A stretch of 64,000 nt of DNA from the NCBI GenBank assembly GCA_003024785.1, contig PUQB01000292.1:62001-126000 (forward strand). The letters are read 5' to 3'. Shown here one piece after another: positions 22,087-50,129 of the stretch (position 1 is its first letter; each line of letters begins with the position of its first letter). The DNA is from Selaginella tamariscina (taxonomy: Eukaryota > Streptophyta > Lycopodiopsida > Selaginellales > Selaginellaceae). A model generated the notes under the pieces. It made no database searches. It worked only from the letters and a program-made list of their open reading frames with translations, and was not told the origin of the DNA. Position numbers and translations under genes: made by a program.

Positions 22087-23300
22087 CTAAGGACGAGTTC
22101 CACGAGTCTTAGGACCTGGTTTAGCAGGATAATGCCGATGGAAGGCAGCAACTTTGGAAGAAGCATGGAGTAAGTTGGATGCAGGTTCCCAAGTGCGATC
22201 GGTAGGCAAATAACCTTTCCAATCCACCAAGTATTGAAGTTGGCGGCGATGAAGACGAGAATCAAGGATGGCTGCAACTTCGTACTCAGGTTCACCAGCA
22301 ATGACCACAGGAGGGGGAGGAGAAGAAGCACGACCAGGAAGAGAAGAAGGATGATACGGCTCCAACAAGGAGGTGTGAAACACAGGATGAAGTTTCACCG
22401 TGGATGGTAACTCGAGTCGGAAAGCTACAGGATTTACCTCCGCCACGATCCTGTAAGGGCCCAATCGTTGAAAATCCAACTTAGAAGAAGGCCTGTTGGT
22501 GCGAATGTGTCGACGAAGAAGCCACACGAGATCACCAATCTTGTATGCAGGTGCCGGTGACGGTGAGCATCAGCATGATGCTTGTACCGTTCCTGTGCCT
22601 GCTGAAGATGAACCTGGAGATCATCCTGTACCTGCGAAGATGCTGAAGACGATCCTGTACTGCAGGAGCGGAAGAAGGAGAAGCGGGAGGAGCAAAGTCA
22701 AAACGTGGATGGTGGCCTGTAAGAGCAAAGAAAGGTGTCTGTCCTGTAGATGCGTGAATGGAGTTGTTGTAGGCAAACTCCGCCATTGGAAGAAGGTCCA
22801 ACCAGTTGTCCTGTGGTAACTGATGAAGCAACGAAGATATGTCCAAGGTCTGAATTGTGCGTTCGACTGCCCATCGTTTGTGGGTGATATCCTGAAGAAA
22901 GATCCGCTTTAACCTGTAGACTCCGAAGAAGCTCTCGCCAAAACTTGGACATGAATTGTGGACCTCGATCGGAAACAATGCTCTCAGGAAGACCATGATG
23001 TCGGAACACCTCACGGATCACCAACTCGGCAGTTGTCTGACCTGTAGCTGTCTTGTTGCAGGGTAGGAAATGAGCCTGCTTGGTGAAACGGTCAACCACC
23101 ACAAGAACTGCATCGAATCCACGAGAAGGAGGAAGATCTGTGAGGAAATCCATAGAAATGGATCTCCAAGGAGCAGAAGGAACAGGAAGAGGACGAAGAA
23201 GACCAGAGGGTGCATGATGAGGCATCTTCGACCTGTTGCAGTGTCACAACTCCGTACAAACCTTTCCACAAAACCTCGCAACCCAGGCCACCAATAGTTG
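22087..23300 (-). pseudogene. Inner family-A integrase and chromodomain
   Basis: Integrase inserts the cDNA; the chromodomain guides it to chromatin. On the minus strand the core shows SISMDFLTDLPPSRGFDAVL, VVDRFTKQAHFLPC and [15 protein letters not shown], with Asp residues at catalytic positions. The end at 22330-22150 has [19 protein letters not shown] followed by [20 protein letters not shown], a canonical chromodomain with its aromatic residues. Frame changes occur near 22840 and 23220, so the polyprotein is not continuous. Confidence 0.85.
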
Positions 23301-25000
23301 CGAGTCACCAACTCAACTGTCTTGGCCACACCAAAATGTCCTGTAGCCGGGGTATCATGACAATCCTGTACCACACGAGTCCTGCAAACACCAACAGGAA
23401 CGTACAGGAGACCTTCCCGGTACAGGAGTCCATCCTGTATGGTGAACAGGTTGTAGTCTGGACGGGAACTGGAGGAAGAGGAACTTGCAACGTCAGGATG
23501 AATGTGTGAGAACACATTCTTTGCCAAGTCGTCTGTAGCCAACTGCGAACGGACGTCCTGTAGGAGTGTTGAATTTGCTGGAGCCTGATGAACCTGCAGT
23601 GCCGCAAGCCGGAATCGATCAGGACCCAACAACACTTGCCTTTGACAGTCAAATGCAGGATCGCCCGGGCTTGGTGCAAGGTAAGAGCGCCTAGACAATG
23701 CGTCCGCCTTGCCATTCCGAAAACCGGGCCTGTAGACGATGACGAAGTCAAAACGTGATAGGAACTCCGCCCACCTAGCCTGTCGCCGACTGAGAACTCG
23801 AGCCGTTTGAAAGTACTCCAGGTTCTTGTGATCCGTAAGAACTTGTACAGGATGTGCAGCACCTTCCAGGAAATGCCGCCACTCCTCAAACGAATCCACA
23901 ATGGCCTTGAGTTCCTTGTCATGAATCTCGTAATTGATCTCCGCCGACAGGAACTTACGAGAGTGAAAAGCTACAGGATGAAGCAACTTGTCCTCTCCAA
24001 CTTGTGATAGGACGGATCCTACTGCAAAATCCGAGGCATCTGCTTCAACGAAGAAAGGACGAGAAGGATCAGGATGTGCTAAAATCGGAGCTGTCGTGAA
24101 GGTGTCCTTGAGTGTTGTGAATGCATGTTCCGCCTTGTCGGACCAAGAGAAAACCTCTGTGCGCTTGGTGAGTTCCGTGAGTGGAAGTACACGCTTGGAG
24201 AAGTCCTGTATGAACGCCTGTAGAAGTTTGCAAAGCCAAGGAAACATTGTACATCTCGTACAGACTTGGGCCTCTCCCACTCCACGATGGTCTTCACCTT
24301 GTGCATGTCCATGGAAACGCCAGCAGGAGAGACGATGTAGCCCAAGAACTCCACAGAATCCCTATCGAAAAAACACTTCTCCAACTTCGCATACAGGCCA
24401 TGCTCACGAAGCCGCTGTAGAACCAACCGTACATGCTTGTCATGTGCCGCCTGGTCCTTGGAGAAAATCAAAATGTCGTCGAGGTAGATCACCACAAACT
24501 GGTCCAAGAAGTCACGAAAGATGTCGTTCACCATGTGTTGGAACACGGCTGGGGCATTGGTAAGGCCGAAAGGCATCACGTGTACTCGAAGTGTCCATAC
24601 CTTGTACGAAAGGCAGTCTTCCACTCATCGGGACGAATCCGTACAAGGTTGTAGGCCCCTCGTAAGTCGATCTTCGTGAACACCTTTGCTCCTCGCAGCC
24701 GATCGAGAAGTTCCGGGATCAATGGCAACGGGTACCGATTCCGAATGGTACTTGATTCAAACCCCTGTAGTCCACAACCAAACGTAAGCTCCCATCCTTC
24801 TTCTTGACAAAGAAGATAGGCGCTCCTGCAGGGGACTTTGAGTGACGAATGAAGCCGGATGCCAAGTTGTCCTCGATGTACTGGCGAAGAACCTCCAACT
24901 CTGTGGGTGACAATGCGTAAATCGGTCCGAACGGTGGAGTCTTTCCTTCTGCAAGATCAATAGGACAGTCGTAGGACCTGTGAACAGGAAGAACTGCAGC
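23300..25000 (-). pseudogene. Inner family-A reverse transcriptase and RNase H
   Basis: Minus strand. RT begins near 24913 ([20 protein letters not shown], then [13 protein letters not shown]), continues with [20 protein letters not shown] and the catalytic YLDDILIF near 24490, then [19 protein letters not shown]. RNase H shows FFVEADASDFAVGSVLSQ (catalytic Asp), [19 protein letters not shown] and [11 protein letters not shown] near 24060-23800. The 420-residue reading frame at 24280-23018 is the longest intact piece in the element and runs on into the integrase zinc finger. A frame break near 24250 separates it from RT. Confidence 0.88.
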
Positions 25001-26104: not shown

Positions 26105-27028
26105 TCACGCGTCTTGAACTTCTGGCTTTATTAGGACATTCCGCCACCTTGTGTCCTGCTGCACCACAATACAAGCATAGGTTCTCACCCGACGACGTTG
26201 CTTCTCAGCAGTTGAAAGTGGGCCACGCTTGGATTTGTTAACCTCCATAGGAACTGCTCCAGAAGGTGTCGTAGGAACATGTGCTACGGCTACAGGATTC
26301 GTTGGCAGGAACTGCTGACGGAATTTTTCCTGACGGCGCTCGAACAAACGGTTGTCGCAGCGAACGGCCTGTTGCATGATCTCCGCTAACGTTTGAGCAT
26401 CCGGTAATGTAAGGAGAAGGTCCTTCACATCATCCCTCAGCCCAAAACGAAAGTGTTCGATCAATGCAGTCTCGTCCCATGGAATGTTTGTGCACAATTG
26501 CTGGAATTCGGATGCATAAACGAAGCTGGTCTGGATCCTTGTGTGAGCCTCCGTAACTTGTGCATGCAGAACGGTACTTATCAGGATCTCCAAAACAGGC
26601 TTCAAAGGCAGCCACGAAACCTTCAAAGTCTCCATCAATGGGTCGTCACGCTCCAGCAAGGGAGCAACCCAAGCTCGTGGAGATCCACTTAGTAAGGATG
26701 CCAAAAGGCCAACCTTTTGTGCATCCGTCGAGTAGCGGCGTGGTTGCATGCGGATCAAGAGCCGGATCTGATTCAGGAAACCTTGGAAATCGGCACGGTT
26801 GCCACTGAACTTCTCTGGCATGCTGATCTTCGGCTCCGGAGAAAAGTTCGATGAAGAAGGAACCACCGATGCCTGAGAGAGAGCCTGCGCAGCAGCCTTG
26901 GAGGATGCATCAGCAGCTGCATGTGCCGCATGGGTGGAGCCTTGCAGATCGGTGACCACTTGGCGCAAAGTGGCCAGCTCATGAAGCAACATTTGGTGCT
27001 CGCGTTGAAAGTGCTCAAAATCAGCCAT
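26105..27028 (-). CDS. Inner family-A gag polyprotein
   Basis: The minus-strand frame starts MADFEHFQREHQMLLHELAT at 27028, about 100 bp inside the 5' LTR, and is open for 307 codons. It has an N-terminal coiled coil with an Ala-rich stretch, the retrotransposon gag capsid region (MPEKFSGNRADFQGFLNQI, then FRFGLRDDVKDLLLTLP) and, in the next frame near 26165, the zinc knuckle CGAAGHKVAEC preceded by another Cys (CX2CX4HX4C). The frame change just before the knuckle may be a decay mutation. Gag forms the virus-like particle that packages element RNA. Confidence 0.8.
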   Translation of the reverse strand: MADFEHFQREHQMLLHELATLRQVVTDLQGSTHAAHAAADASSKAAAQALSQASVVPSSSNFSPEPKISMPEKFSGNRADFQGFLNQIRLLIRMQPRRYSTDAQKVGLLASLLSGSPRAWVAPLLERDDPLMETLKVSWLPLKPVLEILISTVLHAQVTEAHTRIQTSFVYASEFQQLCTNIPWDETALIEHFRFGLRDDVKDLLLTLPDAQTLAEIMQQAVRCDNRLFERRQEKFRQQFLPTNPVAVAHVPTTPSGAVPMEVNKSKRGPLSTAEKQRRRVRTYACIVVQQDTRWRNVLIKPEVQDA

Positions 27029-27126: not shown

Positions 27127-27655
27127 TGTCAAGCCACGATCCAGGAACCAGGAAGAAGTAGGATTCCGAGAACAGGAAGGCTTGACTCAGGAACAGGACC
27201 GAGAGCAGGACAGGAACTAGGAACAGAAGGAACAGGACGGATCCAGGAGCAGGACAGGATAGGATAGGATCCGGGAGCAAGACAGGAGCAGGAGGCAAAG
27301 AGTAAGACAAGAACAAGACAAGAAGGAACAAGAATAATCGTAGAATGACTGGTGTTGATAGTAACTGATTGTACAACAATTAGGTCGGAGCTTTTATGCT
27401 CACAACTCCAAGCTAATCTAGTCATGAGTCTAATCTAGTCATGAGCTAAGAATAGTGTCCCTTATCCTCTAGGCATATCCTGTAGCATATCCTATAGGCA
27501 TATCCTATAGGAATATCCTATAGGTATATCCTGTAGGAATATCCTGCAGGCATATCCTGTAACCCGTATCCTGTATCCGAAATCCTGCATCTGTATCCTG
27601 TATCGGAATCCGTATCCTGTATTCGGAATCCTGTATCCTGTATCGGGTTGTGACA
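27127..27655 (-). repeat. 5' LTR of inner family-A element
   Basis: Starts tgtcaagccacgatcc and ends gggttgtgaca. On the coding strand it is followed by GTTTGATAGTAACTGCTTTC, the presumed primer binding site region; it does not look like the common initiator-Met site. Confidence 0.85.
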
Positions 27656-29719: not shown

Positions 29720-30290
29720 TATCAAGCCACGATCCAGGAACCAGGAAAAGAGCAAAGATTCCAAGACCAAGGAGGCTTGACTCAGGAACAGGACAGGAGC
29801 AGGACAGAACTAGGAACTCATGAACAAGACTGGAACCGAATAGGATCTGGGAGAGACAGGAACAGGATAGGATCCGAGAGCCAGACAGGAAGGCGCAGGA
29901 CAGGATCCATGAACAAGACAGGAACATGATAGGATCCGGAAGCAAAATAGGATCTGAGAGCAAGACAAAGCAGAAGGCAAGGAGCAAGCACGAACAGACG
30001 AGAACAAGAATGATCGTAGAATGACTGGTGTTGATAGTAACTGATTGTACAATATTAGGTCAGAGCTTTTATGCTCACAAACTCCAGCTAATCTGGTCAT
30101 GAGCCTAATCTAGTCACTAGCCAAAAATGGTCATCCTTATCCTATAGGAATTCCTGTAGGCATATCCTGTGGGAATATCATGCGGGAATATCCTGTGGCA
30201 TATCCTGTGGGAATATCCTGCGGGCTGATCCTGTATCCATATCCTGTAGGCTGAAACCTGTATGTCATATCCTGTATCCTGTATCGGACA
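29720..30290 (-). repeat. 5' LTR of outer family-A element
   Basis: Begins tatcaagccacgatcc, with the first TG mutated to TA, and ends tatcggaca after a small terminal deletion. It pairs with 18055-18610. Confidence 0.8.
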
Positions 30291-32914: not shown

Positions 32915-34511
32915 ATGGCGCTCTAGAATATGCATCATTTAATTATTCATATATAACATTTATATTTACATGTTTTATATACATAAACTTGTGAGTTAAA
33001 ATTAATAAAGAGAGACTCTATAATTAGAACTTCAAGTTCTAATTGACATATCCACTGTTCAAATCCGATTTTCCTGGATGACTCCTCTAGCTCCAAGGAC
33101 CTTACTAAGGACGAGTTTGCATTGCACCGTGCAAGCAGGGATGGCAATTTAATGTTGGTGAAGGACTTGCTTGGAAGTGATGAGGTCAAAACGAAAATAC
33201 TCAAAAAGGACAGCGATGGCGACACGGTTCTTCATGTTGCCAGCACTGTCGATGTTCTCAGGTTTCTTTTGAATGAGCTAGGTGATACTGCAGAAGAGGG
33301 AATTTGCCAACCGGGTTTAGGTGGTTTCACAGTGCTCCATAAGGCTGTTTTGGGGAAAGATGTGGACATGCTTATGGTGTTGGTTGACTTCCTGGAGGAT
33401 CGACTAGTGGATGTGTTTTTCAGAGAGGACGATGACATGACAGTTCTACATCTTGCTGCCCGGATTGGTAATTTGAAGGCTGTCGAGATCTTCCTTTCTA
33501 AATTGGGCGATGAAGCCAAAGATGAAATTCTTCAAACGGATGAGTCAGGTAAAACAGTTCTTCATTGGGCTGCCGAAGGTGGGGACATACAAGTTTTCAA
33601 GGAGATAATGTCTAGGCTGAGCGATGACTATGAAATTCATTGTGAAAAAGACACTCTTGGTAACACAATCCTTCATACAGCTGCTGAGAAGGGTAGTGTT
33701 AGCATTGTGGAGTTTCTCTTAGAGAGACTAGGAAACAAGGTTCTAAAAATGCGATCCAGCAGAAAAACAGATTCATCGGAAATGTTCTTCATGTAGCTAC
33801 CTTAGGGGGGAAGAAGGATGTTCTCGTAGTATTGCTTGACAAGCTTGGCAACGAAGCAAAGCGTGTGATACGTGAAAAGGGTGGTGATACAGGTGACACA
33901 GTGCTTCATGCAGCTGCTACATCTGGTCAGCTTGACATTGTGAAGGTTGTGGTGACTAAGCTAGGTCGTCAAGCACGCAATACCATCAATGAGAAAATGA
34001 GTTGGGAGCGACAGTTCTTCATATAGCTGCTTACAATGGGAACATTGACATGGTAAATTTAATCTTCTCGAAGTTAGGTGGACATGCCCAAGATGCAATA
34101 CTTGAAGAAGACTCGTATGGTAACACAGTCCTTCGTGCAGCAATTGGAAGTGGCAATGCCGATATATTAAAGACACTCATGGATAAGCTTGGTGACAGAG
34201 CAAAAGGAAGGGATTCCTAAAAACATAAACAAAACCAGAACCTTCTTCATGCAGCTGTACGTGGTGACAATAGCGACATTTTTAAAATGTTGATGCTGGA
34301 GTTGGGTGCTCAAGCCGAGGATGCAATTCGACAGGCAGATGATGATGGTAACAACCCTCTTCACTTTGTTGTTGAGTACCATAAGAGCAACATGTTCAAG
34401 GAGATTGTTGAGCAAGGTGGTCGTGACCTTTTACGGCAACGCAATTGCAAGAATGCAACGCCCATACATCTAGCTGCTTCTTCTCGGTGGATGGACGAGT
34501 ACATGTTCAAA
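32915..34511 (+). pseudogene. Ankyrin-repeat protein gene, copy 2, 5' half only
   Basis: Homologous to 5932-7590. The start codon context is kept but the fourth codon is TAG (MAL-stop). Ankyrin repeats are open over 33122-33796 (224 codons; words TVLHVAS, TVLHKAV, TVLHLAA, TVLHWAA, TILHTAA), better preserved than copy 1. Frame changes follow near 33740, 34005 and 34220. Homology stops at 34511 (ttcaaa), where the giant element begins. The PGG half is not in the window, so the insertion, or the retrotransposon beyond it, severed the gene. Confidence 0.85.
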
Positions 34512-34576
34512 GAGTCCCGACAAAAGAGGGCTTCCGGGCTTCTGGGCTTCCGGGCTTGGACCCGGAATATTCTAAA

Positions 34577-34602
34577 TGCAAGTTGTAACTAAAATGGGCA
34601 TG
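34577..34602 (+). repeat. Left inverted repeat of the giant element
   Basis: 26 bp matching the right repeat at all but about two positions. Outside it, 34511-34576 holds a small GGGCTTCCGGGCTTCT-type direct repeat that may be the real outermost end; its partner on the right would have been lost to the LTR. Confidence 0.6.
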
Positions 34603-35081
34603 GCTATAGTCCCATTTCCTAATAATTAGCAATTTTAGCTATTTAATTAGCATTTTCTAATATTAAAGGAATATTCTTTAGAATATATGTTTGAAAAGAG
34701 AATATTCTTTAGAATATTCTATTTTGTATTCTACCCTTTAATAAATTATAGCATTCATTGAACAAAAATTAATAACATTATAAAAGTAGAATGTATTAAA
34801 TTATATAATATATTGCCTAATATAACAATTAAGGAAGAGCATAAGAGGTACATTATATAAATATTGATGTTGTTATTAAAAATATTAATATTTAAATATA
34901 ACATTATTAATTAAAAATTTGTAGTAGTAATAATATATATAAAATCCTATAATAATATAGTCAATCTTCCATATCATTTTTTAAATTTATATAGTTAAGT
35001 ATACAATTTGGTACTATTATTAAAGAGTTTATAATAATTATGAATATTAAATATATGATATTTTATAATTTTGTAATTGCT
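34603..35081. other. Left subterminal region of the giant element
   Basis: AT-rich; contains repeated GAATATTC palindromes, for example attctttagaatat twice near 34670 and 34705. No gene is seen. Confidence 0.4.
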
Positions 35082-38000
35082 TTAAGCTTCAGAAAACATA
35101 CATTCCCTTGCAGTTTTGTTAATCGTGACTTTATCAACGCTTCTTGACATCCACCCATATCGAATGGATTTAACATTTATAAAACATGCTGGGTCTTTTT
35201 GATTGGGAGACCATGTTTTCTCTAGGCATCCATTATATCTTTCGCTCTCCTTCTCGTGTCGCCTTTTTTGTGGTTTGAACCATGCAACCTTAACAATACT
35301 ATTTTTTGTGATTACTTCAGGTGTGTCGATAATTTGACCCATCCAAATAGGCTGATTATATGACGCATCTGGAGTAATGAGAACCATCATTAGTTTTTGA
35401 AGATCCTTGCAGCAATCAAAGTATGCTTTAGGTTTTTGGTTCCTTTGTCCAACAAAGTGTGGGGTTTGCACTTCCACATCACTACTGGCTTCTATGTCGT
35501 CTGTGCTCAGTGATGTCATTTCAATCTCCTCTCGCCACCTTGTTTTAGGCCAGAAAGGGTGTTGCAATTCTGTACTTGTGACAGTAGGCCCTTCCAACTC
35601 TCGAACAACAGTCTCCCAATAGTTGACCACATGCTTATATAGTTCTGAGTAACCAGTTGCCTTATCAGAATTCTTTGGCATCGATTTTTGAACCCATGCC
35701 ACATATTTTTTGATGCCATCAATAATAACCTCTTGTTCCTTGAGCTGGGCACTCAATGGAATAGGGTCTGGTTGTCCTTCTGGGAGAAGTGGCTTTCCAT
35801 CCTCTCCACTTTTGAAGAGCATTAAGCCCTCTTTCGGTAACCACTCCTGCTCTGATGGCCGTAACTTGTACTGCATAATAGGTATACCATCTCGTATGGA
35901 GAAAAAGAATTGTAGCGGCACAAGGTGACCAACTAAAGAATCACTCCCTTCTTTTATATACTCCTTGAGAAATTTTTTGAAGTCTGGCACCTCAGTCACA
36001 AGCAAAGCACAACTTTTTTTGGAGATGCAATTTTCAAAAAGATTCATCATATGCGGTAAGGTAAGTGCACTTGTCCTTTTTGTAGAGTTGGAGACCTTGC
36101 TGAAGAACGCATCAATATCTTCATGAGTGTGACCAACCATAAGGAAACTGAGCGTGATTGTTTCAAACACACCTTTGGCAACAAGCATTGACAAGTATGC
36201 TAGCACATATCTAGAAAATAAAAGTAAGTATGAGCTTGAGAAACCCTTAAGTAAAATGATTTACCTATTTTTGTTCTCGCCTGCACAATTATCCATCTGT
36301 AAAAGCAAATGACGAGGAAGCTTATTTGATGTTGAGGACACATGTACACTATTTGAGCTAGATCCCTCCACTGAACCTGAACTCTCAACAGGGCCATCTG
36401 TTTTTTGTGCAGGTTGCTGACAATGCCTCTCATATTCCCAAGTAGCCTCAAGTGCAGACGTGTTCATGAGAGCATTATGTAAAGGTTGAAGGTGTTGTTT
36501 CTTCACTTTGAGATCACTGATAGGACTTGTCTGTGAGTGGGCTTCAAGGTTTCTGAAACACATGGCTAACGACCCAATAGTGAAATTGGAGTCGCTAGAC
36601 CAATGTGGAAGTGAAAAGTGTCCATATGACTCACAACCGTGTCCATGTGTTAGCACACCTGTTAAAGAAATCGGAAGTTTCATGACATTTCCAAGGCACT
36701 TTGGTGTTGCAAAGAGCTTTGGAATGCTGGTCTTTGAATGATCCATCTTGTCATGGATCAAGCACAGGTACTCTGATGGGCGTGACACAGAAAGCATGCG
36801 GTGTGCATAGTACTGAGACCGGCAAGTTTGTTGTGCAATCATGTGGGCCTCCATCTTCCTTTGAATGGTAGTGATCTCCACCAAGGTTTTTGCACAAGCC
36901 TCTGCAGCCTTCAATGATGTACAAGTGTCACACTTAGAAAAGCTAGAGTGTTTTGCAATCTCCACATCCTTAAAATGAGTATTCCATATGTTGTTGAAGG
37001 TACCAGTGCAGATTGCTTGGAGCCCCATCAAACTGAGGCACTTGTTCACATGTTCACACAGTTTCAATTGAGTGTAGATTGAAGGTAAAACCTTGAGATT
37101 TTCCCTGACCCCTGCATTTGTGGTTCGGCATTTGTGAGGCATCCTGTCTGCATTTGCTTCCACAAAAGCCTTGAGTATCTCTATGGCTGCCATGATGTGA
37201 GAGCGGGTTTTGACCAAGCCAGTGTTCCCATGAACTGAGGTTCGCGCTCCATCTAGCCACTCATCCCTCCGACGGTAGAACGTGGTCTTTGGGATCCCGT
37301 ATATACTGTACCAAGCTTTGAAGCAGATGGCCACCTTATTAAATACCATGGATGTACTCTGATAACCTGTGTCCGAGGCCATTCCATCAATACACCCAGT
37401 TAGTGCAGCATATACAAACTCATGCCTTTGCTTTTGGGTGAGCATACGAAAGACATGTCTACATTGGGTAATTTCATTCCGGTCTGCCATCTGACAACAC
37501 TTCTTCTTGCAACAGTCAATCGTGGAAATGCTCGTAACACTTTCGGAAGATGTAGGATCCATCTTTACCCTCTTGCTGAAACTTGCAGGGGAAGATCTAC
37601 AACCCATGAATCGCCTTTTTCTTACAATAGGACCAATGCAAGGAACCTCTTCAAATATGAGTTGTTCTTCCGGGTTGTTATTATTGAAATCCAACCCAGA
37701 ATATGTTGAACCATCTTGCCGTCTTAATTCAGATGTTCGCCACCTCACGAGGGATCCAGGATACAATGTGCCATTAGGTGAAACCTCTGTCACAACTACA
37801 CCCACGAAGTCGGACCCTAGTTTCTCTTCTGACACTGCTTCCATTGGATTTATAGCTGTGATGATGCCTCTTCCGACTTCAATCTCACGAAGAAAGAGAA
37901 TCACCTCATCCATCACAGCAGGCAAGCCATCATCTGGTAAACTCGTGCTACTATTTGTTTGTGACTCTGCATATTTGTGTCAGCCTTGACTTCATCCAAA

Positions 38001-38198
38001 TTCCACAATACAGGAGAACCCTCCTCAAATTCCATTCCCAGAACCTCAACATGCTTGAAATGGTGTTCACCCATACGTACACACAAGATCCTTGGGAATA
38101 TTGTGACATGATGCATTATTATCTCGAACTTCCACAGTTCCAGTGCCAACTATCTCGTTGTTCCGAAGAAGACATACTTTATCTCCAGTATTAAACAT
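35082..38198 (-). CDS. Transposase-like protein of the giant element (RNase H/DDE-like)
   Basis: Two coding exons, 37925 or further upstream to 36265 and 36210 to 35082, joined by a 54-bp GT-AG intron that leaves the frame intact, give at least 930 residues. An N-terminal part has a conserved Cys-rich segment (DCCKKKCCQMADRNEITQC) and an HTH-like stretch (YGIPKTTFYRRRDEWL). The core has LCLIHDKMDHSKT, then LQMDNCAGENKNR just before the intron, then VGHTHEDIDAFFSKV. The Asp/Asn/Glu/His spacing resembles the RNase H-fold DUF7869-type domain of plant and animal transposon proteins, so a DDE transposase is my inference. The frame extends upstream to an ATG at 38198, but two compensating indels (near 38075 and 37960) interrupt it. 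A segment there (HVEVLGMEFEEGSPVLWNL) resembles small domains found in other transposon proteins. It is one of the two best-preserved genes in the window. Confidence 0.7.
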
Positions 38199-38348
38199 AT
38201 TGTCCTGCACATAAATAATTGTATTATTTATGATATCTGTTTATGCAATATTTTAAGAAATCTGAATTACGGTTACTTAATAATATGCATATGCAATAAT
38301 ACATAATTATGTTTAGAGATAATATCTCATGTTTGATTAATACAACTG

Positions 38349-39090
38349 ATGGGCGGGATTAATCCCGCCCACGAATCCCTCCGACGAGGAACGGTCGGCG
38401 GGATTAATCCCGCCGCCGACTCAACCCCTTCGGAGAGAGTCGGCGGGATTAATCCCGCCTTGGACTCCCTCCGACAAGGAAGAGCCGGCGGGATTAATCC
38501 CGCCGCCTCTTCCTCCTCGGGGGGAGTCCGGCGGGATTAATCCCGCCGACTCTCTCCGACGAGGAAGGGAGTCCGGCGGGATTAATCCCGCCGACTCATC
38601 CTCGCCGGAGAGAGTCGGCGGGATTAATCCCGCCGGACTCCCCCTCGACGGAGGAAGAGGCGGCGGGATTAATCCCGCCGGCTCTTCCTTGTCGGAGGGA
38701 GTCCAAGGCGGGATTAATCCCGCCCACAATTCTTACGACGGGGAATGGGTGGCGGGATTAAACCCGCACATAACTCTCTCCAAAACTATGATTTCAAAGA
38801 GATCTCGGGATAAATCCTGTCCCCAAATCTTTAAAACAGGGAAGTGGTGGCGAGATTAATCCCGCCACCCCTTCCCTGCCTCCTAAAATGGTTGGCGGGA
38901 TTAATCCCGCCGACAACTCTTTCTAATAAATTCTGGTAACTCTTCATCAGTTGAGAAGGTTATCGACGGGATTAATCCCGCCACTCTTTTTCAGTGGCGG
39001 AGAAGCATTGCCCGGGAGATGGTGGCGGGATTAATCCCGCCACTTCTTCAAAGAGGCGAAAAAGAAATGGCCGGATTAATCCCGCCGCCC
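38349..39090. repeat. Palindrome array 1 (GGCGGGATTAATCCCGCC, 45-bp pitch)
   Basis: About 16 copies of an 18-bp perfect palindrome or close variants. The first ten start at 38352, 38397, 38442, 38487, 38530, 38575, 38617, 38662, 38707 and 38751, so spacing is 42-45 bp and mostly exactly 45. Later copies (about 38847, 38893, 38966, 39023, 39070) are less regular and slightly mutated. Spacers are GC-rich, share 'ctccctccgacgaggaa' words in both orientations, and often extend the palindrome (GAGTC...GACTC). It starts about 150 bp upstream of the transposase gene. Confidence 0.95.
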
Positions 39091-39779
39091 CGGTTAACCT
39101 AGAATATTAAGTTAAAAGGATATTTAAACGGATAAATCCCTAACGGAATATATTATAATCCTAATGCATTCTAAACCCCTAAATTGTAATTTTAAGAGAG
39201 AATGTAAGAGAGTGAATCTTAATAAGTATTTTTAAATTTGTTTATAATACTTACTTGTAAACAGCACTGAAGGCGCCGTGCTTTCCTATAAAGAATAGCA
39301 CCCAATTTAATCTCGCTCCTGAGATGATCACTATGAAGAAAAAAGAAGATCTAAAGAGTGAAAAATACAGAAATGAAGAAACCCTTGCCGGAGAAAGAAC
39401 CAGATCTGAATTTGAGTGGGAAATTAAATGCATTTTCAAATTTACATGTCAGACCGACAATACATATGTCAGAAATTCAAATTTTTTAAAAAGAACAGAA
39501 AATAAAATTTAAGATGAGTTGACACAAATATCCGACACTCTGACATATATACTCTCCAGTTCCAATGAGTATTTTAAAATTGCATTTAATGTTATTCAAG
39601 TGATTCAAGCTGTTTAATATTACGAAATTTTAGACTATATTCTACATTCTTAGTATTCAAGTATATTATATTATATATATATATATAAATATATACTTAT
39701 ACAATAAATAAATTGATATATTATTATGTATCATTTAAAATATATTCATAGTCTGTTTATTATTATTATTTTCTTAATT
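39091..39779. other. AT-rich spacer in the giant element
   Basis: No gene with support. A 62-codon frame on each strand near 39250-39510 has no family features. Confidence 0.4.
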
Positions 39780-40345
39780 ACTCGAGTATTTAGTTTTCAT
39801 TTCCTAGTATCAATGGGATATTCTTTAATATTTTATTAATATTTGAAGAATATTCTAATTATTAAACCTGATTATCATAATTAAATTAGTCTTGTTCTTA
39901 ATTATTGCAGTAATTATTCTACATTTGTATATATTAATGGGATTTTCTCAATTAATTTGTTATTATTTCAAGAATATTCATGTGTTAAACCTTATTATCA
40001 ATATTAAATTAATACACACTATGAACATATTTTAAATTATACATAATAATACATCATTTTATCTAATATATAGTCATATATAGTTTTAATAATATATATA
40101 TTAATATCATTTCCTTAATTACTTGAGTAATTAATCTTCTTTATATTAATGGGATATTCTTTATTATTTTCTTATTATTCCAAGAATATTCCAATATTAA
40201 ACATGATTATGATAATTAATTTAGTTAATTATTTGAGTACTTAATTTACATTTGTATATATTAATGGGATTTTCTCAATTAATTTCTTATTATTTCAAGA
40301 ATATTTCAATGTTAAACCTTTTTATCAATATTAAATTAATATATA
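39780..40345 (+). repeat. Diverged AT-rich repeats around 'attaatgggatattct'
   Basis: At about 39810, 39935, 40147 and 40262 the same order of words recurs: attaatgggat(a/t)ttct, ttattatttcaagaatatt, then gttaaacctt. Spacing is 115-210 bp. Confidence 0.6.
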
Positions 40346-40685
40346 TTATTAAAACTATATATGGCTATATATTAGATAAAATCATATATTATTATGTATA
40401 ATTTAAAATATGTTCCTAGTGTGTTTATTAATTTTATTTTCTTAATTATTCGATGTTTGTTTTGCACACATATATAAACACAATCATAAATTTACACACG
40501 CATTACAAGAACTTACAAAAACACATATGCACACACATGCACAACCCTAAACCAAACTGAAGAAATATGTTGCTTCTTTATTGAAAACATCATGTTCAAC
40601 GCATGTATGATATATGTACTCAATCTGTGTATATGTAACACATTGAATTTACATGTGTAATATTTATATTAAGCTTGTTGGGAGC

Positions 40686-40721
40686 AAACCCTAAACCTAA
40701 ACCCTAAACCCTAAACCCTAA
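40686..40721 (+). repeat. Interstitial telomere-like repeat 1
   Basis: About five CCCTAAA units, one lacking a C. Plant-type telomere sequence inside the transposon, flanked by TG/TA-rich DNA. Confidence 0.85.
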
Positions 40722-41149
40722 TATGTAACACAATGAATTTACTCATGTAATATGTATGTATGTCTGTGTGTATACACGTGTGCATGTATATATGTGTACT
40801 CTGTATGTATATATGTGTACTTTCTGTCTTCTCTCATACATACACACCATGCATGATCCATGTTAATATGTACTGTCTCTCTTCTCTCAAACATACACAC
40901 CATGCATGATCTATAATATGTACTCGGTCTCTCTAATATTATGTACTAATATGTATGTATGTCTGTGTGTATAATACACACCATGCATGATCCATATTAA
41001 TATGTACTGTCTCTCTTCTCTCATATACTATGTATGTATATCTGTGTATAATATGTGTAAGTATATATGTGTACTAATATATGCAATGTGTACAAAAATA
41101 ATTTTTCAACACTCTCTCTTCTCTCATACATACACACCATGCATGATCC

Positions 41150-41188
41150 ATCCTAAATCCAAAACCCTAAACCCTAAACCCTAAACCC
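41150..41188 (+). repeat. Interstitial telomere-like repeat 2
   Basis: About four CCCTAAA units after 'cctaaatccaaaa'. Same orientation as the first, 460 bp away. The sequence between holds four copies of a 'cacaccatgcatgatc' unit with 'tctctcttctct' (about 40840, 40900, 40980 and 41130). Confidence 0.85.
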
Positions 41189-41554
41189 ATGTAATATGTG
41201 TGTATGTCTGTGTGTATACACGTGTGTATGTATATATTATGTGTATTAATATATGCAATGTGTACACATGAAACTTTAACACTCTCATGGACACACACAT
41301 GTTAAATCCCTGCATGATTTATATTTTTGAGGTGTATGTGATACCCACACCACACGCACGCGCTAATAATATAATGAAAGAATATTCGTTTAGGGCGAAT
41401 CTATATTTTATTCTTTTTAGGGTTTAAGTATATTCTCAGAAGGAATATTCTATTAGGGTTGATATATATATTTAATTCCTTTAGGGTTTAGGTATATTCT
41501 TAGGGTTTCAAGAGGCGGCGGCTGTGAAATCGGCGGCGGCGGCTGTGCACACAG

Positions 41555-41811
41555 GTGAGATCTGTGTGTGTGTGTGTGTGTATGTATGTATATATGTATA
41601 GGAGTGTGCGTATAATTTTTTTATTAGTTTTATCTCTCGCACACACACGCACACTCCTGTGTATGTATATGTGTCTGTATGATTTATTTGTTTCGCTCAC
41701 ACACGCATACACACGATATACATATACACATATATATATATACCTATATACATATATACATACATATATTATGTGTACCAGTATCTGTAAATTTTTTTTT
41801 ATTGATCTTGC

Positions 41812-41886
<75 letters not shown>

Positions 41887-41951
41887 GTGTACCAGTATCT
41901 GTAAATTTTTTTTTATTGATCTATCTCTCCCACACACACGCGCACTGCTTT

Positions 41952-42034
<83 letters not shown>

Positions 42035-42707
42035 CAATGCATATTAACAAATAGTATACAACACTAGTTTATATATATGCTTATATATTCATAATATACA
42101 CACATATATATGTGTGTGTTTTCTGTATAATTTTATTTATTTATTAGTTTTATCTCTCGCACACACACGCACACTCCTGTGTATGTATATGTGTGTGTGT
42201 GTGTGTTTGTTTATCTGTATGATTTTATTTGTTTCGCTCACACACGCATACACACAATATACATATACACATATATATATACCTATATACATATATACAT
42301 ACATACAACACTAGTTTATATATATGCTTATATATTCACAGACTCTCTCTCTTTCTCTATAGATTATATATCTATATACACACATATATATGTGTGTGTT
42401 TATCTGTATAATTTTATTTATTTATTAGTTTTATCTTTCGCACACACACGCACACTCCTGTGTATATATATATGTGTGTGTGTGTGTTTGTTTATCTGTA
42501 TGATTTTATTTGTTTCGCTCACACGCATACACACGATATACATATACACACATATATATACCTATGTACACACATATATTAGGTGTACCAGTACTGTATA
42601 AGTTTATTTATTTATCTATCTCTTGCACACACACGTACACTCCTATACATACATACATACATACATATATATACACACACACATATATATGTGTGTGTTT
42701 TTATCTC
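41555..42707. repeat. Microsatellite cluster (CA, TA, TG) with ~330-bp larger repeats
   Basis: Long CA runs (41813-41848, 41953-41972), TA runs (41850-41882, 41973-42031) and TG runs. A larger unit recurs: 'tttattagttttatctctcg', then 'cacacacacgcacactcctg', then 'tttgtttcgctcacac' at about 41620-41720, 42145-42250 and 42420-42530. Predicted frames here are only Tyr-Ile or Thr-His runs. Confidence 0.9.
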
Positions 42708-42719
42708 GCTAAGCCCCTC

Positions 42720-44095
42720 GAGCGGCGGGATTAATCCCGCCGCTATATAGTTGGGCCATGGCGGCGGGATTAATCCCGCCGCCGAGGCCCTTCAGGCATG
42801 GGTGAGCGGCGGGATTAATCCCGCCGCCGAGGCCCTTCACGCAGGCTATGGGCGGCGGGATTAATCCCGCCGCTCTACGACAAACCGAAGAGCGGCGGGA
42901 TTAATCCCGCCGCCCATAGCCTGCGTGAGGGGCCTCGGCGGCGGGATTAATCCCGCCGCTCATCCATGCCCTGCGCGGAATGCGGCGGGATTTATCTCGC
43001 CGGCAATGGCCTGTGTGAAGGTTCTAATGGGCGGGATTAATCCCGCCGGATTCCGCGCGGGCATTTACAGGGAATGGGCGGCAGGATTAATCCCGCCGCT
43101 CTTCGGTTTGTCGTAGAGCGGCGGATTAATCCCGCCGCCCAGGGAATTCACGCAGGACATGAACGGCGGGATTAATCCGGCCCCACGCTCATGCCCTTCG
43201 CGGAGGGCGGCGGGATTAATCCCGCCGTTCATGTCCTGCGTGAATTCCCTGGGCGGCGGGATTAATCCCGCCCCCACCCATCCCTGTTCAAAAATGCCGC
43301 AAGCCAATATATATGTGTGAGCGCATGATTTACGAGAGGGCGGCGGATTAGCCTCCGAACCTTCATTACCCGGTGGCGAGATTAATCTCCGAACCTTCAT
43401 TACCCCATTGGTATGTTGAATCAATCCCGACTAACTCTGTCTGAGACGGAGAAGGTTTAAAAATACCAATGGAGGGAACCGAGAAGGGTGGTGGGATTAA
43501 TTTCACCATCCCTTACATGGGGGGATTAATCCGCCGCGTACGCATGCCCTGCGCGGAATCGGGCGGGATTTATCCCGCCGCCATTGGCCTGCCTGAAGGG
43601 CCTAGGCGGCGGGATTAATCCCGCACGCAGATTTCGCTCGCCGCAAGGGCATTGGCGTTCGGCGGGATTAATCCCGCCCATAGGGATCGAGTGAAGGCCC
43701 TGGGCGGCGGGATTAATCCCGCCGAGTCTTCAATGCCTGTTGGAGAAATGAATCTCGCCACCCTTCCCTTTTTCCTCCATTGGTGAGTTGGACCAATCCC
43801 AAACGTTTCTGTCTAAGACGTAGAAGGTTTACAACATACCAATGGAGGGGACTGGGAAGGGTGGCGAGATTCATTTAACCATCCCTTACATGGTGGGCGA
43901 GATTAATCCCGCCTCCTTTCTGGAGTCACTGAAGGGGTGTGAGAAATAAATCCTGCCCAGTTCTCTCTGAGACCGAGAAGGGTGGCAAGATTAATTCCGC
44001 ACTCCCGTTCAAGGCCTCCAGAAAGGTGGCGAGATTAATCCCGCCCACTCTTTCAGGAGGCATTGAAGGGGTGGCGAGATTAATCCCGCCGCACC
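42720..44095. repeat. Palindrome array 2, with higher-order inverted repeats
   Basis: Roughly 25-30 copies or variants of GGCGGGATTAATCCCGCC. The first six start at 42724, 42763, 42808, 42854, 42894 and 42940 (spacing 39-46 bp). The block 42806-42877 is repeated almost perfectly in inverse at 42890-42961, and 43115-43180 in inverse at 43207-43275. From about 43360 copies degrade (GGCGAGATTAATC..., GGCGGGATTTATC...) and spacers include 'ccattggt' inverted pairs. Ends about 110 bp before the hairpin that precedes the ParB-like gene. Confidence 0.92.
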
Positions 44096-44204
44096 TTCCA
44101 TGTGAATATATATGTGTATTAGTATATATAAGTTGCATATCTCATTTTATTTACTTTTATCATCTCTTCATATTATTTCGAGTAAAAGCTAGGAATCTAT
44201 GTAA

Positions 44205-44291
44205 AACTGTCCAGAGCTCACATTTGTGGTGGTTCTAAAACGAAATGTTATCTTTCTTTTGCACTAACACAAATGTGAGCTTCGGACAGTT
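44205..44291. repeat. Hairpin-forming inverted repeat upstream of the ParB-like gene
   Basis: Arms 44205-44228 and 44268-44291 are 24 bp with two mismatches (AACTGTCC..GCTCACATTTGTG), separated by 39 bp. It lies about 140 bp before the ATG and may be part of the leader or promoter. Confidence 0.8.
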
Positions 44292-44433
44292 AATTACGTC
44301 TACTTCTCTCTGTGTATTATTTTTGTATATTCGGGTTTATACAAGTGTGTGTGCGTTTTTATATAATTTATATTTATAGTGTATTATTTTGCAGAAGGAA
44401 GATTTGATCAAACAAGGAGATCGAGTCATTAGT

Positions 44434-47400
44434 ATGGAGTCGTCGTCAAATTCTGGGTAAGAATTAAAATAAAATCTGTTATACTCGGATACTTGAACTA
44501 ATCATTTTTGTATTCAGATGTGGAATTGAGGTGACATTAAAGTCAAGAGCAGGAGAAGAGATGGGCAGGGGGATTCTGGAATCAACTTGGCCATATTTTA
44601 AGATAAATGGGAAGCGCATTGGAGCAACCATGGCTGCTGTCAAATTAACCTCTGTCACATCTCATGGACAAGTAAAACAATGGAAAGTTGATTCGCTAGT
44701 CAAGCACCCGAAAGCAGGCTGCGAACCCAGATTGGACGATGCTCGACAGATATGCCTTGTTCCATCCAATGTCACGTTCTCGGATCCAGAGGTCGTCAGT
44801 TACAACATTAATCTCGGGTGGTTTTGTCGACTTGTGGATAATGACGTTCACGTGTTCACTAATGATGTTGACCTTGGAGTTCTTCTTCAACTCAACGAAA
44901 GCCCATCTATGGAGGGGATCCATCTGGATGTCTACTTCGAAGATCTTCAGACTCATCGAGTAGGTGTATTGTCAGGAGATATTGTTTCACAATACAGAAA
45001 ATCAGCAAGTGGAGCAATCTTCCCTCTTGACATTGAAGAAGAACACAGCGACATCATAAGGGAGATTGAGAAGGTGGCTCGGTCTCAGGTTCTCTACAGA
45101 TCACGTTCAATTTGCTTAGGAAGCTTCGGGAGCTGGAGCAGTGTGCCGAGAACACTAGAACAGCTGCAGTCGGGGATCACACATGTTGATTCGGATCGCA
45201 AAAGAAAATCATCAATCGTTTTGTCAGCTGCACCTGTGGCATCTCATGCTGCAATAAGTCACAAGGAAATGATGTTGGATGATAAGATTTATCCTTGTAG
45301 GGTTAAATATTGCAGCGTCAACCCAAACTTCAATTACAGGCCACTCAACCAGGAACGTGTAGCTGAGCTCATGGAGAAGATGAAGGACGACAATTCTTAT
45401 ACCGTTCCACATAATGCTGTTTTGTGTCCATACTATGAAAGAAGGAAGGGTGCTGACAAAGTCTGGATCACAACACCAGAACAACTCATGAAGATTCAGA
45501 CGGAGAATAAAAGATCTATCAAGTACTACATCATTAGTGGCCAGCACACAATAACGGCAGCCCAACGACTTCTCGAAGAACACAACAAAGGAACGATGGC
45601 AACAAAACTTTCCGAGCATACCCGTGAGAAGCTGACAAAAAGATCGGCGTTTTTAGCTAAGCCGAATCTCACAATCGAGCAGTACCATAAGTTATCGGCG
45701 GAATGGGACGCTGCCGACACCAACCACTACAACAGCAAAATATGGGAGAAGTTTAAACACACGCGAGCCGTGTGGGAATCTCTTCAGCGACCACAAAGAG
45801 CTACCGCAGGGAATACACAATCTGCGGAATACCGGGTAAGCAAATTGTTTGGGCGGGATTTATCTCGCCGGTATATTAATCTGTCTTTTTCCTCAGAGAG
45901 TTGAAGAAATTGCAGCAGTTGATTTTGCCCAGGTGGGCGGGAAGGAAACATCATTTCTGATGATGTTGATTTCTTGCCCCGAAGATAGGATCTTTGCCAA
46001 ATGGTTGGGGATTATGGAATCCTTTTCAAAAGGAACACTGAAGAAGAAGCAGACAAGTGAAGGGGAGCCCTCAGAAAAGTCTGCAAAGAAACCCAGTAAG
46101 ACGCCGAAGGCTAAGTCTGTTCAATCTACAAAGGATGTAGACAACGATTTCAAGCTCACATGGTTGAAGCCTTTAAATGGAACAACGATGGAGGAGATGG
46201 AAGTCTTGGCTGATTTGGTGATCGATGGCAAACTACAAATCAATAACAGCAGCCCAACCTCTCCTTTTCATCTCAAGGCAATGGAGTTGAAGACGGTCAG
46301 GCATTTCAAGGAGTGGTTGGGAATACACTGCCACAAACTGGGTTGGACCTCGACTTCAACATATGAAGAGGTTAGCAAATATTTGCATGTGACGAACGAT
46401 GATATGCTTGTCGAATGGGTGAACCAATCGGAAGATCTAGGCAAGAATCTATTGCACGCCAACGCCAAAAAGGAGAACATTGGGATGACGCCTTCTCTTA
46501 TGGCAGTCCTTCAGCAGCGGAGAACCGAATTGAACCTTATAAAGGAGGATGCTACGAATCACGACAAGCCCTACAGATGTTTGTTGTTAGATTCGGAGAC
46601 TTTATGGGGTAACATCACTGCTTGTAGGAAACCGTTTCAATTGTTCGTGATGGATCGGCGGGTGTCAAAAAATCTTTCGACAGATAGGGCACTAGAGGAT
46701 CTGGTGGAGAAACTTAGCCGTGCAAGCATATACATAGAAGGTATTTATTATTGAATTCATGCTTGCGCTCTTCACTGATACCTACTTTTTCAGGTATTTA
46801 TTTCTTGATTCTTGCTCATGTCACCGATACTTTTGCCTTCGCCTTCGCCAAGAAGAATAGACATCGTTGGACAGGATTTTATATGAACGATGCTAATCCC
46901 AAGTGCATTGATACTGTTGTTCACTTGGTTGTTAGGAATGCGCCAAACAATTTCAAGCTTCCAAATGACTGGCCAGGCATCTGTTTGCACTCCAACGGCC
47001 CTGAACCTCCATCCGATACACCGATAGGTATGAGTGACGTATTCGGCAATGTACGTTATCCAAACATTACAAGTCAAGCGGCACGGAGCATCGTCAACTT
47101 GATCAGGGGTCCTCACAGTGATGCGTGGGTTTTTGACTACTGCACTAGGGGGTCCGTCTTGAAGGAGTGTTACCTTCGGCATACATGTGTGTTTGCCGTT
47201 GAGAAGGATAAGACCATGGTTGAGGACCTGAACAAGTGGATAGATTGGGTCTCAACTGAGTACCCCAACGATTCCATAAAGGCGTATTTGAGAAAGTTCC
47301 CTCCAGATAAGTGCGATAGCTCTGAAGGTGAATCTGGTTCAATCTCGGAGTCTGAGAACGAACATCAATCAGATATTAGACCGGAAGTTATCTCGAGGAG

Positions 47401-47539
47401 TACAGAACATTCGCACACTCCAGGACCCATGGAAACATCAATAGAAGATGCAGAAGATCTTGAACCATCTCACAAGCGGCTTAGACCTTCTTCGCCTCAT
47501 TCAGAAGGTAATAGCGAAGAAGAATTGATAATGAATTGA
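44434..47539 (+). CDS. ParB/sulfiredoxin-like domain protein of the giant element
   Basis: Four coding exons: 44434-44456 (MESSSNS), 44518-45835, 45897-46740 and 46794-47539. Introns are 53-61 bp, all GT-AG, and every joint keeps frame, giving about 976 residues. An untranslated exon probably precedes it (acceptor at 44394). The central part resembles a ParB N-terminal domain: VNPNFNYRPLNQERVAELME, a Pro-containing strand, then YYIISGQHTITAAQRLLEEH, which matches the family's substrate-binding 'Y.I.G.HR..A' pattern with His-Thr in place of Arg. After this come a Lys-rich linker (KKPSKTPKAKS) and a helical region. The tail is acidic and Ser-rich, with the NLS-like SHKRLRP near the end. Known ParB-fold proteins bind nucleotides and DNA palindromes or act as nucleases; the role here is inferred. 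The gene is intact, unlike most in the window. Intron 2 carries a copy of the array palindrome. Confidence 0.7.
45851..45869. repeat. Palindrome copy inside intron 2 of the ParB-like gene
   Basis: GGCGGGATTTATCTCGCC, a variant with two changes, occupies almost one third of a 61-bp intron. Located 1.75 kb from the nearest array. Confidence 0.8.
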
Positions 47540-47629
47540 TAAGTGATGAATAGTTGTAAATGAGTGTAACATAAGGCATTTTTGTATATTTCTTTTATAT
47601 TTGTACAGAAAATAAATTCTCAAGGATTA

Positions 47630-48982
47630 ATGAAGCTTTTAGTTCAAACATGGGTCACACATTAACAAGGTAAATAATATACCTTGATAATTTTAAGGTC
47701 AGCTAATTATCATTTTGCAGATGTAATGAAATAATTGAGAACATGGATTTTCAGCATTGCCATGAGGTAAGAGAGGGGTTTGGCGACAATTTTTGTGCCA
47801 CATGTCAGAATGACAGAGTTCATGCAGGAAATGGATAATAATGCAGCTCAAAACATCGTTACCATGGGGGCCACTTCAGTTTTTGCATCATCATTTTTTT
47901 GGCTTCAATTCCGAAATCAATTTCTTCAGCGCATGCAATATCTGAATCTTGTAAGGATGATGTACAATTAAATGATGAAGGGATAGGCAACGAAATAGTG
48001 GCAACGGATAAATGTGAAAGGGAGCAAACAAGTGATTTGCAAAGTATTCAAGAGGCAACGCTATCTCATGTTACTCATGGCCATATTGTGTTGTTGGATG
48101 TCAATGGTGTTCTGCTTCATCGACAAAGGCCCGAGGATAGAAAAACAGAAATCAAACAAGGAGATTTCATTCCTTGTCATGGTAAATTTCGAATATGATA
48201 TTATTTTTCGTCCAGGGTTGGATCGTCTCTTTCAAAAGCTTAAGGAGATGGGTGCGCTTGTGGGGATTTGGTCATGCATGCAGATTCATAACTTAACACC
48301 GCTGTTGAGTTTACTTAAGAAACATTGTAGTGTTGCAGAAGAGGTGATTCGTAAAGATTGGATTTTTGACCAGCGAATGTGTTATAAACCTCTCGAATTT
48401 CACAATATAGAAAGGAAAGCAAGCCATACTTCTTCAAGAATGAAAGAATAATTGGGACTCATGGGGAGATCAGTCGCTTAAGGATAACGAAGAATGCACA
48501 TATCTTAGTAGTAGACGACTCTCCTCAGAAGGCTATGCTCAACCAAAACATTGCTTGTATTCATCCAATCACTTTCGATCCATATTCTGATATCGATATC
48601 ATGGATGAGCTAGTGAACTACTTGGATACGTGCCTCAGAAAGAAGAATCTCGAAAATTTTTGTGAGCAGTATCCACCGTATCATACATTTCCTGAAGCTT
48701 TTCTTTCTCGTGATATTGAATTTTATAAAATGAAGGATAGCAACCGGGCGCTTTATAATATTATTCTTAAGGAACGTCAGTTTTTAGATGAGCCTTTATG
48801 CAGACCTCTCTTATACATCTTATGTATTAACAAGGATGGCAACTCCCAATTGCATTCGTGAGAGTGTTAAGTGGTGGCAACAACATCAAGATATTGACCA
48901 AAATGATTTGATTAATCCGGAGAGTGATGATTTAGACAAAATGAAAAGATTTCTTTGTATGATAGAAAGAAAGTATTTATAA
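47630..48982 (+). pseudogene. HAD-superfamily (FCP1/SCP-like) phosphatase gene of the giant element
   Basis: Short exons with GT-AG borders are seen at the start (acceptor at 47720, possible donor at 47766). The recognisable part begins at about 48085: HIVLLDVNGVLLHRQRP is HAD motif I (the DxN form of the plant family, with the first Asp as nucleophile). Then FRPGLDRLFQKLKEMGALVG and IWSCM (motif II region), KDWIFDQRMCYKPLEFHNI, and ILVVDDSPQKA (motif IV, the metal-binding Asp pair). The tail reaches the stop at 48862. The frame shifts near 48180 and 48420. Members dephosphorylate proteins such as the RNA polymerase II CTD. The two breaks suggest decay or sequence error. It lies 90 bp after the ParB-like gene and 280-400 bp before the right inverted repeat. 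Confidence 0.65.
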
Positions 48983-49242
48983 AAAATTAACATGTTGATA
49001 AGAAAATGATTTCATTTGTAATTATGTTTGATAGTATTTCTTCATTATTGTAAACTATTTTTAGAATAATATGAATATTCTAAGATATTTAGGAATATTC
49101 CTTACTAAGTAAGGTTATTGAAGGATTAATTAATTAATTAATTAATATTTAAGGCTTAATTACATATTAATTAAATGATTAATTAATAATTAAAACTTAA
49201 GTATTAATTAGTAATTTATTTTATATTCCCATTTTCACGTAT

Positions 49243-49268
49243 CATGCCCACTTTAGTTACAACGTGCA
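49243..49268 (-). repeat. Right inverted repeat of the giant element
   Basis: Reverse complement partner of 34577-34602. A chromovirus LTR starts at about 49265, so the outermost bases may be missing. Confidence 0.55.
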
Positions 49269-50129
49269 TTCAAGGGTTGAACAACCTAAACATGTTAGCA
49301 GGAGCCCTTTCGTGAGGCACTCGCAAGGTCATGTGCTTAGGGTTATCCCAAACCTAGCCTTAGGGAGTTTGCTTAGCAAAACACTCGTGTCTACCTACGG
49401 CGCACACTCGCGTCCTCACTAAGTACTAGCCCTAGGTCTAGGGTATAACTTGGCCACTCAAACCCTTAGGGGTTCAGGGTACCCCTTGTCGCCCTAAAGG
49501 GGTTGTACTCCAGATGAGGGTGATTCCTCAAGAGGTAAGTGACGATGCTTTAGCTCTGTCCAGGGGTATGTGTGGAACACACGTCTCCTTGATGGGGGTT
49601 AGGGCATGAGCCTGTCTAGGTCTTCTAGGGCAAGACCCTAAGTCAACTAGGGTTATCCCTCAAGGGTTTTGGGGGCAGACACTCTAGGGAGACTTAGGCT
49701 AAACCCTAAGTCAACTAGGGTTATCCCTCAAGGGTTTTGGGGTAGACACTCTAGGGAGACTTAGGCTAAACCCTAAGTCTCCTGTCCACTTGGGCATTAG
49801 AGTCTAACCTAGGGGTCGTTGGGGTTGTTCTGGGAAACTTAGCGTTGCTCAACAGGGTGATGACGCCAAATGGCCACCTGGCAGCCACGTGTTGCCACGT
49901 GTTGGCCCTTTGGGTTAAAACTCTGACAGGAGAGTTTCTAGAAGGTAAGTTTTAGCTTTGCCTAGAGTTTCTTGCAAATACCTAATGACACCCAGTTGGA
50001 CTATCACTAGATACCCAAGTGTACTAAACGGGCCTGTTTCCTACTACATCTAGGGTTCGTCACACAACTCGATAAGTAACAACAGTCAAACCCCAAAGTA
50101 AAGGTCGAGTCATAGTAAAAACTATGACA
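49265..50129 (-). repeat. 3' LTR of family-B element
   Basis: About 865 bp; the coding-strand start is TGTCATAGTTTTTACTATGA, a small palindrome. The distal end is placed at TG 49265 by analogy in length with the solo LTR at 17336 and is uncertain. An internal ~77-bp tandem duplication (49630-49785) contains 'ccctaagtcaactagggtta' and 'gacactctagggagacttag'. Confidence 0.65.

Follow-up and report, generated by a model that had tools for sequence, protein, structure and literature searches.

The 64,000-nucleotide stretch of Selaginella tamariscina DNA analyzed here (the window; positions 62,001 to 126,000 of contig PUQB01000292.1, assembly GCA_003024785.1) carries, at 34576..49269, one member of a high-copy, recently active family of DNA transposons. 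The 14,694-bp element shares its ends and its genes with near-identical copies elsewhere in the genome, and the family has a 4-bp target duplication and two empty sites. We consider it very probable that the element is one copy of an autonomous family of the terminal inverted repeat (TIR) type, with a presumed DUF7869 transposase and a central control region. A probable transposase, a large unassigned protein, a phosphatase and two palindrome arrays together make an unusual kit for a DNA transposon.

Ends, copies and target duplications

The ends of the element were set by an alignment of 11 copies, comprising the window copy and ten whole copies whose selection is described below; their lengths range from 13,973 to 14,963 bp. 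A first-pass annotation of the window had noticed inverted repeats at both ends, and these proved to be 27 bp long. The left TIR (34576..34602, plus strand) is ATGCAAGTTGTAACTAAAATGGGCATG, an “A” variant, and the right TIR (49243..49269, minus strand) is a “G” variant that differs from it at 2 of 27 positions. Pairwise alignment between the ends as initially reported had given a 28-bp inverted near-match of 92.9% identity. The left end had been placed at 34511, where it was thought to cut ankyrin homology cleanly; its correct position is 34576, 65 bp further in. The ankyrin homology stops at about 34511 and 64 bp of other sequence precedes the element, so the ankyrin gene was not directly cut by it. 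Inside the TIRs lie three subterminal GAATATTC sites on the left (34669..34719; offsets 93, 124 and 136) and two on the right (49073..49100; 169 and 189 bp from the end). These stand at near-constant offsets in the four copies compared and are possible, putative transposase binding sites.

We searched the genome (300.7 Mb in 1,391 contigs, with the window located in contig C607) for a 21-bp TIR core, GTTGTAACTAAARTGGGCATG, pooling the “A” and “G” variants. There were 2,926 exact matches, 1,482 forward and 1,444 reverse, while the reversed core, used as a control, had none, which places the inverted repeat far beyond chance. From the first 100 of these matches, 28 adjacent convergent TIR pairs could be formed; 24 of them joined one “A” end to one “G” end, and 17 of those 24 were spaced 13.7–15.4 kb apart. 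No adjacent convergent pair among the first 100 matches was shorter than 5 kb, and chance ends of unrelated miniature inverted-repeat transposable elements, an outcome that the first-pass annotation had foreseen as possible, are thereby ruled out. If the sample is typical, the roughly 34 in 100 exact ends that fall in full-length pairs extrapolate to about 500 such copies.

Ten of the 28 pairs were taken whole and ten more by their ends alone; the remaining eight were not used. The whole copies were “A”/“G” pairs 13.9–14.9 kb apart, chosen by TIR pairing and spacing and blind to gene content. Gene order and ends were the same across all 11 aligned copies. The genes thus do not co-occur in the window alone, which would have told against a single mobile unit, but stand together in every copy compared. 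Copies begin ATGCA and end TGCAT with small variants, and a few have small terminal losses (L029 lacks the last right-end bases and L019 one or two left-end bases). Ten of the eleven copies are 97.7–99.5% identical to one another, which argues for recent activity and agrees with the earlier judgement that the element is likely recent. The remaining copy, L021, is 92–93% identical to those ten, and a diverged copy on C1 (L054/L055) could be aligned over the same parts. In several copies, one- and two-base indels were very frequent for the number of substitutions (13 against 11 in L027, 28 to 26 in L015, 12 to 33 in the window copy and 55 to 240 in L021). This excess looks partly like assembly error, with decay as the alternative.

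The L021/L022 copy on contig C69 is a mosaic, its synonymous difference to the other copies being about 0.9% in the second exon of the transposase gene, 4% in the first exon, and about 11% in the two plus-strand genes. This pattern suggests recombination between element lineages.

To look at insertion, we fixed the boundary by alignment and compared the bases on either side. An exact 4-bp flanking duplication was present in 10 of 21 TIR pairs, as against 4 of 420 mismatched pairs. Other lengths were rare among the 21, with two 3-mers, two 5-mers and no 6-mer. The ten exact duplications were AAGA, TCTA, AACG, CTAT, ACAT, TAAT, AAGT, TTAT, TATC and ATTA. Two copies, L045 and L049, are nested inside other copies of the family, and copies without the insertion serve as empty sites. 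In 18 of 21 comparisons of L045 with its empty site, and in all 10 for L049, the overlap between the flanks was exactly 4 bp. A constant-length duplication, confirmed as insertion by two nested empty sites, together with shared TIRs on dispersed copies, is what characterizes a TIR-type DNA transposon.

Several observations weigh against this account of insertion. The window copy itself is flanked by CTAA and TCAA and has no matching duplication, and 11 of the 21 pairs lack an exact 4-mer. Among those 11, the flanks share a 5-mer in L027 and in L031, and in L035 they share a 3-mer or, if read one base over, TTAA; recombination or joins made in assembly may account for the pairs that lack a duplication. 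The L045 flanks overlapped by 2, 2 and 9 bp when compared with L009, L031 and L033, and five flank comparisons for L027, which lies in simple-repeat DNA, gave no constant overlap. No excision event was seen.

The DUF7869 gene and its superfamily

The genes occupy both arms of the element, as the first-pass annotation had described, with the transposase-like gene on the minus strand and the phosphatase on the plus strand. The transposase-like gene has a first exon at 36265..38198 (DUF7869, PF25273, E = 1.4e-12), a 54-bp intron at 36211..36264 and a second exon at 35082..36210 (DUF7869, E = 3e-25). The intron is GT-AG and 54–55 bp long in 11 of 11 copies. In the window copy exon 1 is frameshifted close to its start; in copy L030 it forms an open frame of 659 codons (L030:3498-5474; DUF7869, E = 2.8e-12). 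The two main genes had been called intact; that holds for the 976-aa gene, which is unbroken in the window, and fails for the first part of the transposase gene, which is frameshifted in this copy as assembled, as is the phosphatase gene.

DUF7869, a Pfam domain of unknown function, was the sole significant family match of the minus-strand protein, and the protein carries, by eye, the acidic motifs HDKMD, MDNCAGENKN and, in exon 2, THEDID. The two-exon protein is presumably the transposase. We calculated the ratio of nonsynonymous to synonymous differences (pN/pS) among ten copies, against L021, and against the C1 copy using three reference copies, with the reading frame shifted by one base (window against C1) as a control. 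For exon 1 the ratio was 0.30 among the ten copies, 0.26 against L021 and 0.31–0.36 against C1. The in-frame value of 0.31 and the control of 0.60 are moderately apart, and we regard purifying selection on exon 1 as moderately supported. Two points count against this reading: the acidic triad was read by eye, and selection on exon 2 is unclear, its ratio being 0.74 among the ten copies and 0.78–0.83 against C1, not apart from the control of 0.58, though 0.38 against L021.

Which superfamily the element belongs to is a separate question. Sola elements make 4-bp target duplications and encode DDD transposases, and the present element resembles them in its 4-bp duplication and its TIRs. On these general traits Sola is the likeliest home, and we give slightly less than an even chance to the reading that the element is a member of this described superfamily, with only its accessory genes and arrays being new. 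We know of no Sola element that combines palindrome arrays with a phosphatase and a second protein of 976 aa, and membership is judged here on the 4-bp duplication and the TIRs. A Sola1 element is reported for the moss Physcomitrella in the table of a review (PMC9033089).

A somewhat less probable reading, though one to be taken seriously, is that the DUF7869 transposase represents a eukaryotic superfamily not yet named, here tied to an element with proven ends and a target duplication. It is favored by DUF7869 being the only significant family match. We found no paper on DUF7869 in the open-licence literature, nor a description of the element itself there, but the absence of a Pfam name from such papers says little.

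The TTAA-type superfamilies were excluded, as none of the ten exact duplications was TTAA; only the shifted reading of L035 would be. Both Kolobok and piggyBac have TTAA duplications according to PMC9587614, which also describes Kolobok lineages carrying accessory nucleases and a helicase. Those lineages resemble our element in that their target duplications are 4 bp long and their DDD/E transposase is joined by accessory proteins, and differ from it in their target sequence. Fungal DNA transposons of the EnSpm, Harbinger-like, hAT, IS3EU and KDZ groups carry TET/JBP dioxygenase genes, as reported in PMC12730594. Here too an extra gene is suspected of acting on host silencing, but the superfamilies are other ones, and no TET/JBP domain was among the Pfam matches of our element.

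The plus-strand genes and the central region

The 976-aa gene (44434..47539, plus strand) has four exons, at 44434-44456, 44518-45835, 45897-46740 and 46794-47539, and its three introns are GT-AG in 11 of 11 copies. Of the 11 copies as assembled, the window copy alone keeps this reading frame open throughout, the other ten having breaks. The pN/pS ratio was 0.38 among the ten copies, 0.29 against L021 and 0.25–0.28 against C1, far from the frame-shifted control of 1.41, and purifying selection on the predicted protein is therefore clear.

This gene had been labeled ParB-like, and the label did not gain independent statistical support. It is a resemblance seen by eye: two boxes in exon 2, NPNFNYRPLNQERVAELMEKM and IISGQHTITAAQRL, are collinear with those of phage ParB domains, and the sequence around residue 838 is reminiscent of motif I of methyltransferases, also by eye. 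Pfam gave no ParB match at E values up to 10, PHROGs and NCBIfam gave no significant match for the exon frames, and a PDB search of the ParB-like part was likewise negative. In hmmsearch, using a profile built from 66 phage open reading frames (from at least 80 loci), the protein scored within the range of its shuffles, and with a ParB-domain hidden Markov model built from 29 pieces its score was reached by 109 of 1000 shuffles; the protein thus shows no significant sequence match to the ParB/Srx group, scores being at or near those of shuffles. The nearest to a signal was a weak hint from hhalign, whose best match for the ParB part was the expected box (P = 0.022, with 1 of 100 shuffles as good). 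For the whole protein the methyltransferase motif was matched best (P = 0.11, with 9 of 100 shuffles as good), with the reversed sequence scoring higher, and for the C-terminal piece alone 96 of 100 shuffles did equally well. A tblastn search in phages returned one match, at 22% identity and E = 6. Single-sequence AlphaFold modeling of the ParB-like part gave a predicted local distance difference test score (pLDDT) of 40. A second model, built after aligning pieces of phage ParB, scored 64, and the top nine VIA rows for it were ParB/sulfiredoxin-type chains, but this result is circular; Foldseek found no significant match.

The central region contains two palindrome arrays with telomere-like DNA between the genes, as the first-pass annotation had said, and we mapped the sites and tracts of both. 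Counting as a site any match of at least 14 of 18 positions to the 18-bp GGCGGGATTAATCCCGCC, array 1 (38352..39086), upstream of the transposase gene, has 14 sites at mostly 42–45 bp spacing, and array 2 (42724..44090), upstream of the 976-aa gene, has 23. A lone site lies in intron 2 of the 976-aa gene (45852..45869), with one in a similar place in L021 and C1. There are 38 sites in the window copy and 35 each in L021 and C1, and the perfect palindrome is absent elsewhere in the window. In 12-copy alignments, motif columns diverged by 1.3–1.4% in array 1 and 2.9–4.3% in array 2, versus 6.2–7.5% and 8.0–10.0% for the respective spacers. This comparison is biased in favor of conservation, because sites were picked by their likeness to the consensus. 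The telomere-like tracts, both on the plus strand, lie at 40686..40721 (AAACCCT, 5.3 copies) and 41152..41188 (CCTAAAC, 5.3 copies). Tracts of at least 3 exact units occur in 10 of 11 copies. Many matches to the telomere motif in the genome are paired, about 450–560 bp apart, and 37 of 43 merged matches on contigs C1–C80 sit 5–10 kb inward of a listed TIR, compared with 1 of 43 outward.

The phosphatase region (approximately 47842..48982, plus strand) matches the NIF domain PF03031 at E = 5.3e-6 in the window, where the gene is frameshifted. A frame of 375 codons is open in L025/L026 (L026:6341-7468), and there the match improves to E = 1.5e-12. Scores of 47.9 bits in L026 and 26.6 in the window both exceed the curated cut-off of 21.8, and motif I reads, by eye, DVNGV. 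The gene is thus predicted to encode an NIF/FCP1-type haloacid dehalogenase (HAD) phosphatase.

The phosphatase and the arrays might still be passengers without function for the element, which we think unlikely. The phosphatase ratio was 0.63 among the ten copies and 0.38–0.98 against C1, with few changes; its in-frame value of 0.73 (window against C1) is hardly apart from its control of 0.85; and arrays could spread by slippage, all of which would suit passengers; selection on the phosphatase is unclear. On the other side, all 11 aligned copies have the phosphatase region, its ratio against L021 is 0.36–0.38, and palindromes are retained while spacers diverge. That the whole is an integrated DNA virus or derived from one, as its large size, several genes and non-coding arrays might suggest, is very improbable: the matches from Pfam and PHROGs included no family of capsid, polymerase or packaging proteins, TIRs with a 4-bp duplication are DNA transposon behavior, and a provirus was rejected when four protein queries and one motif pattern, reaching close relatives only, found no relative in viral contigs.

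Neighboring sequence and a proposed mechanism

A tandem repeat of GGGCTTCC lies within the 64 bp (34512-34575) that separate the ankyrin homology from the element. The ankyrin-type stretch there (34176-34511) is 92.6% identical to another at 7259-7593, and the pair is a local duplication. Retrotransposon parts lie on the minus strand at 23018-24280 and 26105-27028 (RT_RNaseH, Integrase_H2C2; DUF4939), and a 13-bp TATCCTGTAGGCA-like repeat forms four arrays spread across this region (18465-18535, 21914-22064, 27463-27646 and 30138-30276). Sugar-transporter fragments occur on the minus strand at 155-886 and 10268-11014, the closest solved structure to the latter being “Sugar transport protein 10.” To the right of the element, a 67-bp tandem repeat (49635-49779) has 2.1 copies with 97% matches. 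Rfam had no matches within the window.

We infer that the DUF7869 protein acts as a DDD/E-type transposase that would bind the TIRs, possibly along with the subterminal GAATATTC sites, excise the element and insert it at a cut staggered by 4 bp. Transcription of both gene units would run outward from the central control region. The palindrome arrays are probably bound by an element-encoded protein, for which the 976-aa protein is the best candidate; it may coat the center and regulate both promoters or prevent silencing. The telomere-like tracts may serve as sites for host factors, and the phosphatase is probably an acquired accessory acting on host transcription or silencing.

A bolder and rather doubtful extension is that a ParB/parS-like nucleoprotein system operates inside a eukaryotic DNA transposon. 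The candidate 976-aa protein would bind the arrays at both promoters and coat the center, coordinating expression, shielding the element from silencing or helping its ends to pair, and the phosphatase would be a second effector directed at the host. The likeness to bacterial ParB/parS systems and phage ParB-methyltransferase fusions lies in the two collinear boxes seen by eye and in the palindrome arrays beside the gene. The element differs from these systems in that its ParB resemblance lacks independent sequence support and no ParA was found. In open-licence papers, a search for ParB together with transposons brought up a single paper, on Nostoc, which is unrelated.

The analysis places DUF7869 in an element whose ends are exact, whose 4-bp target duplication was measured and for which natural empty sites exist, and this would give the domain a probable job, transposition. 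It is unusual for a young family of 14.5-kb elements to have so many exact ends and, among those sampled, no short derivative. Element-encoded control or anti-silencing becomes testable in this family, which combines conserved palindrome arrays and telomere-like tracts with extra genes, of which one is clearly under selection.

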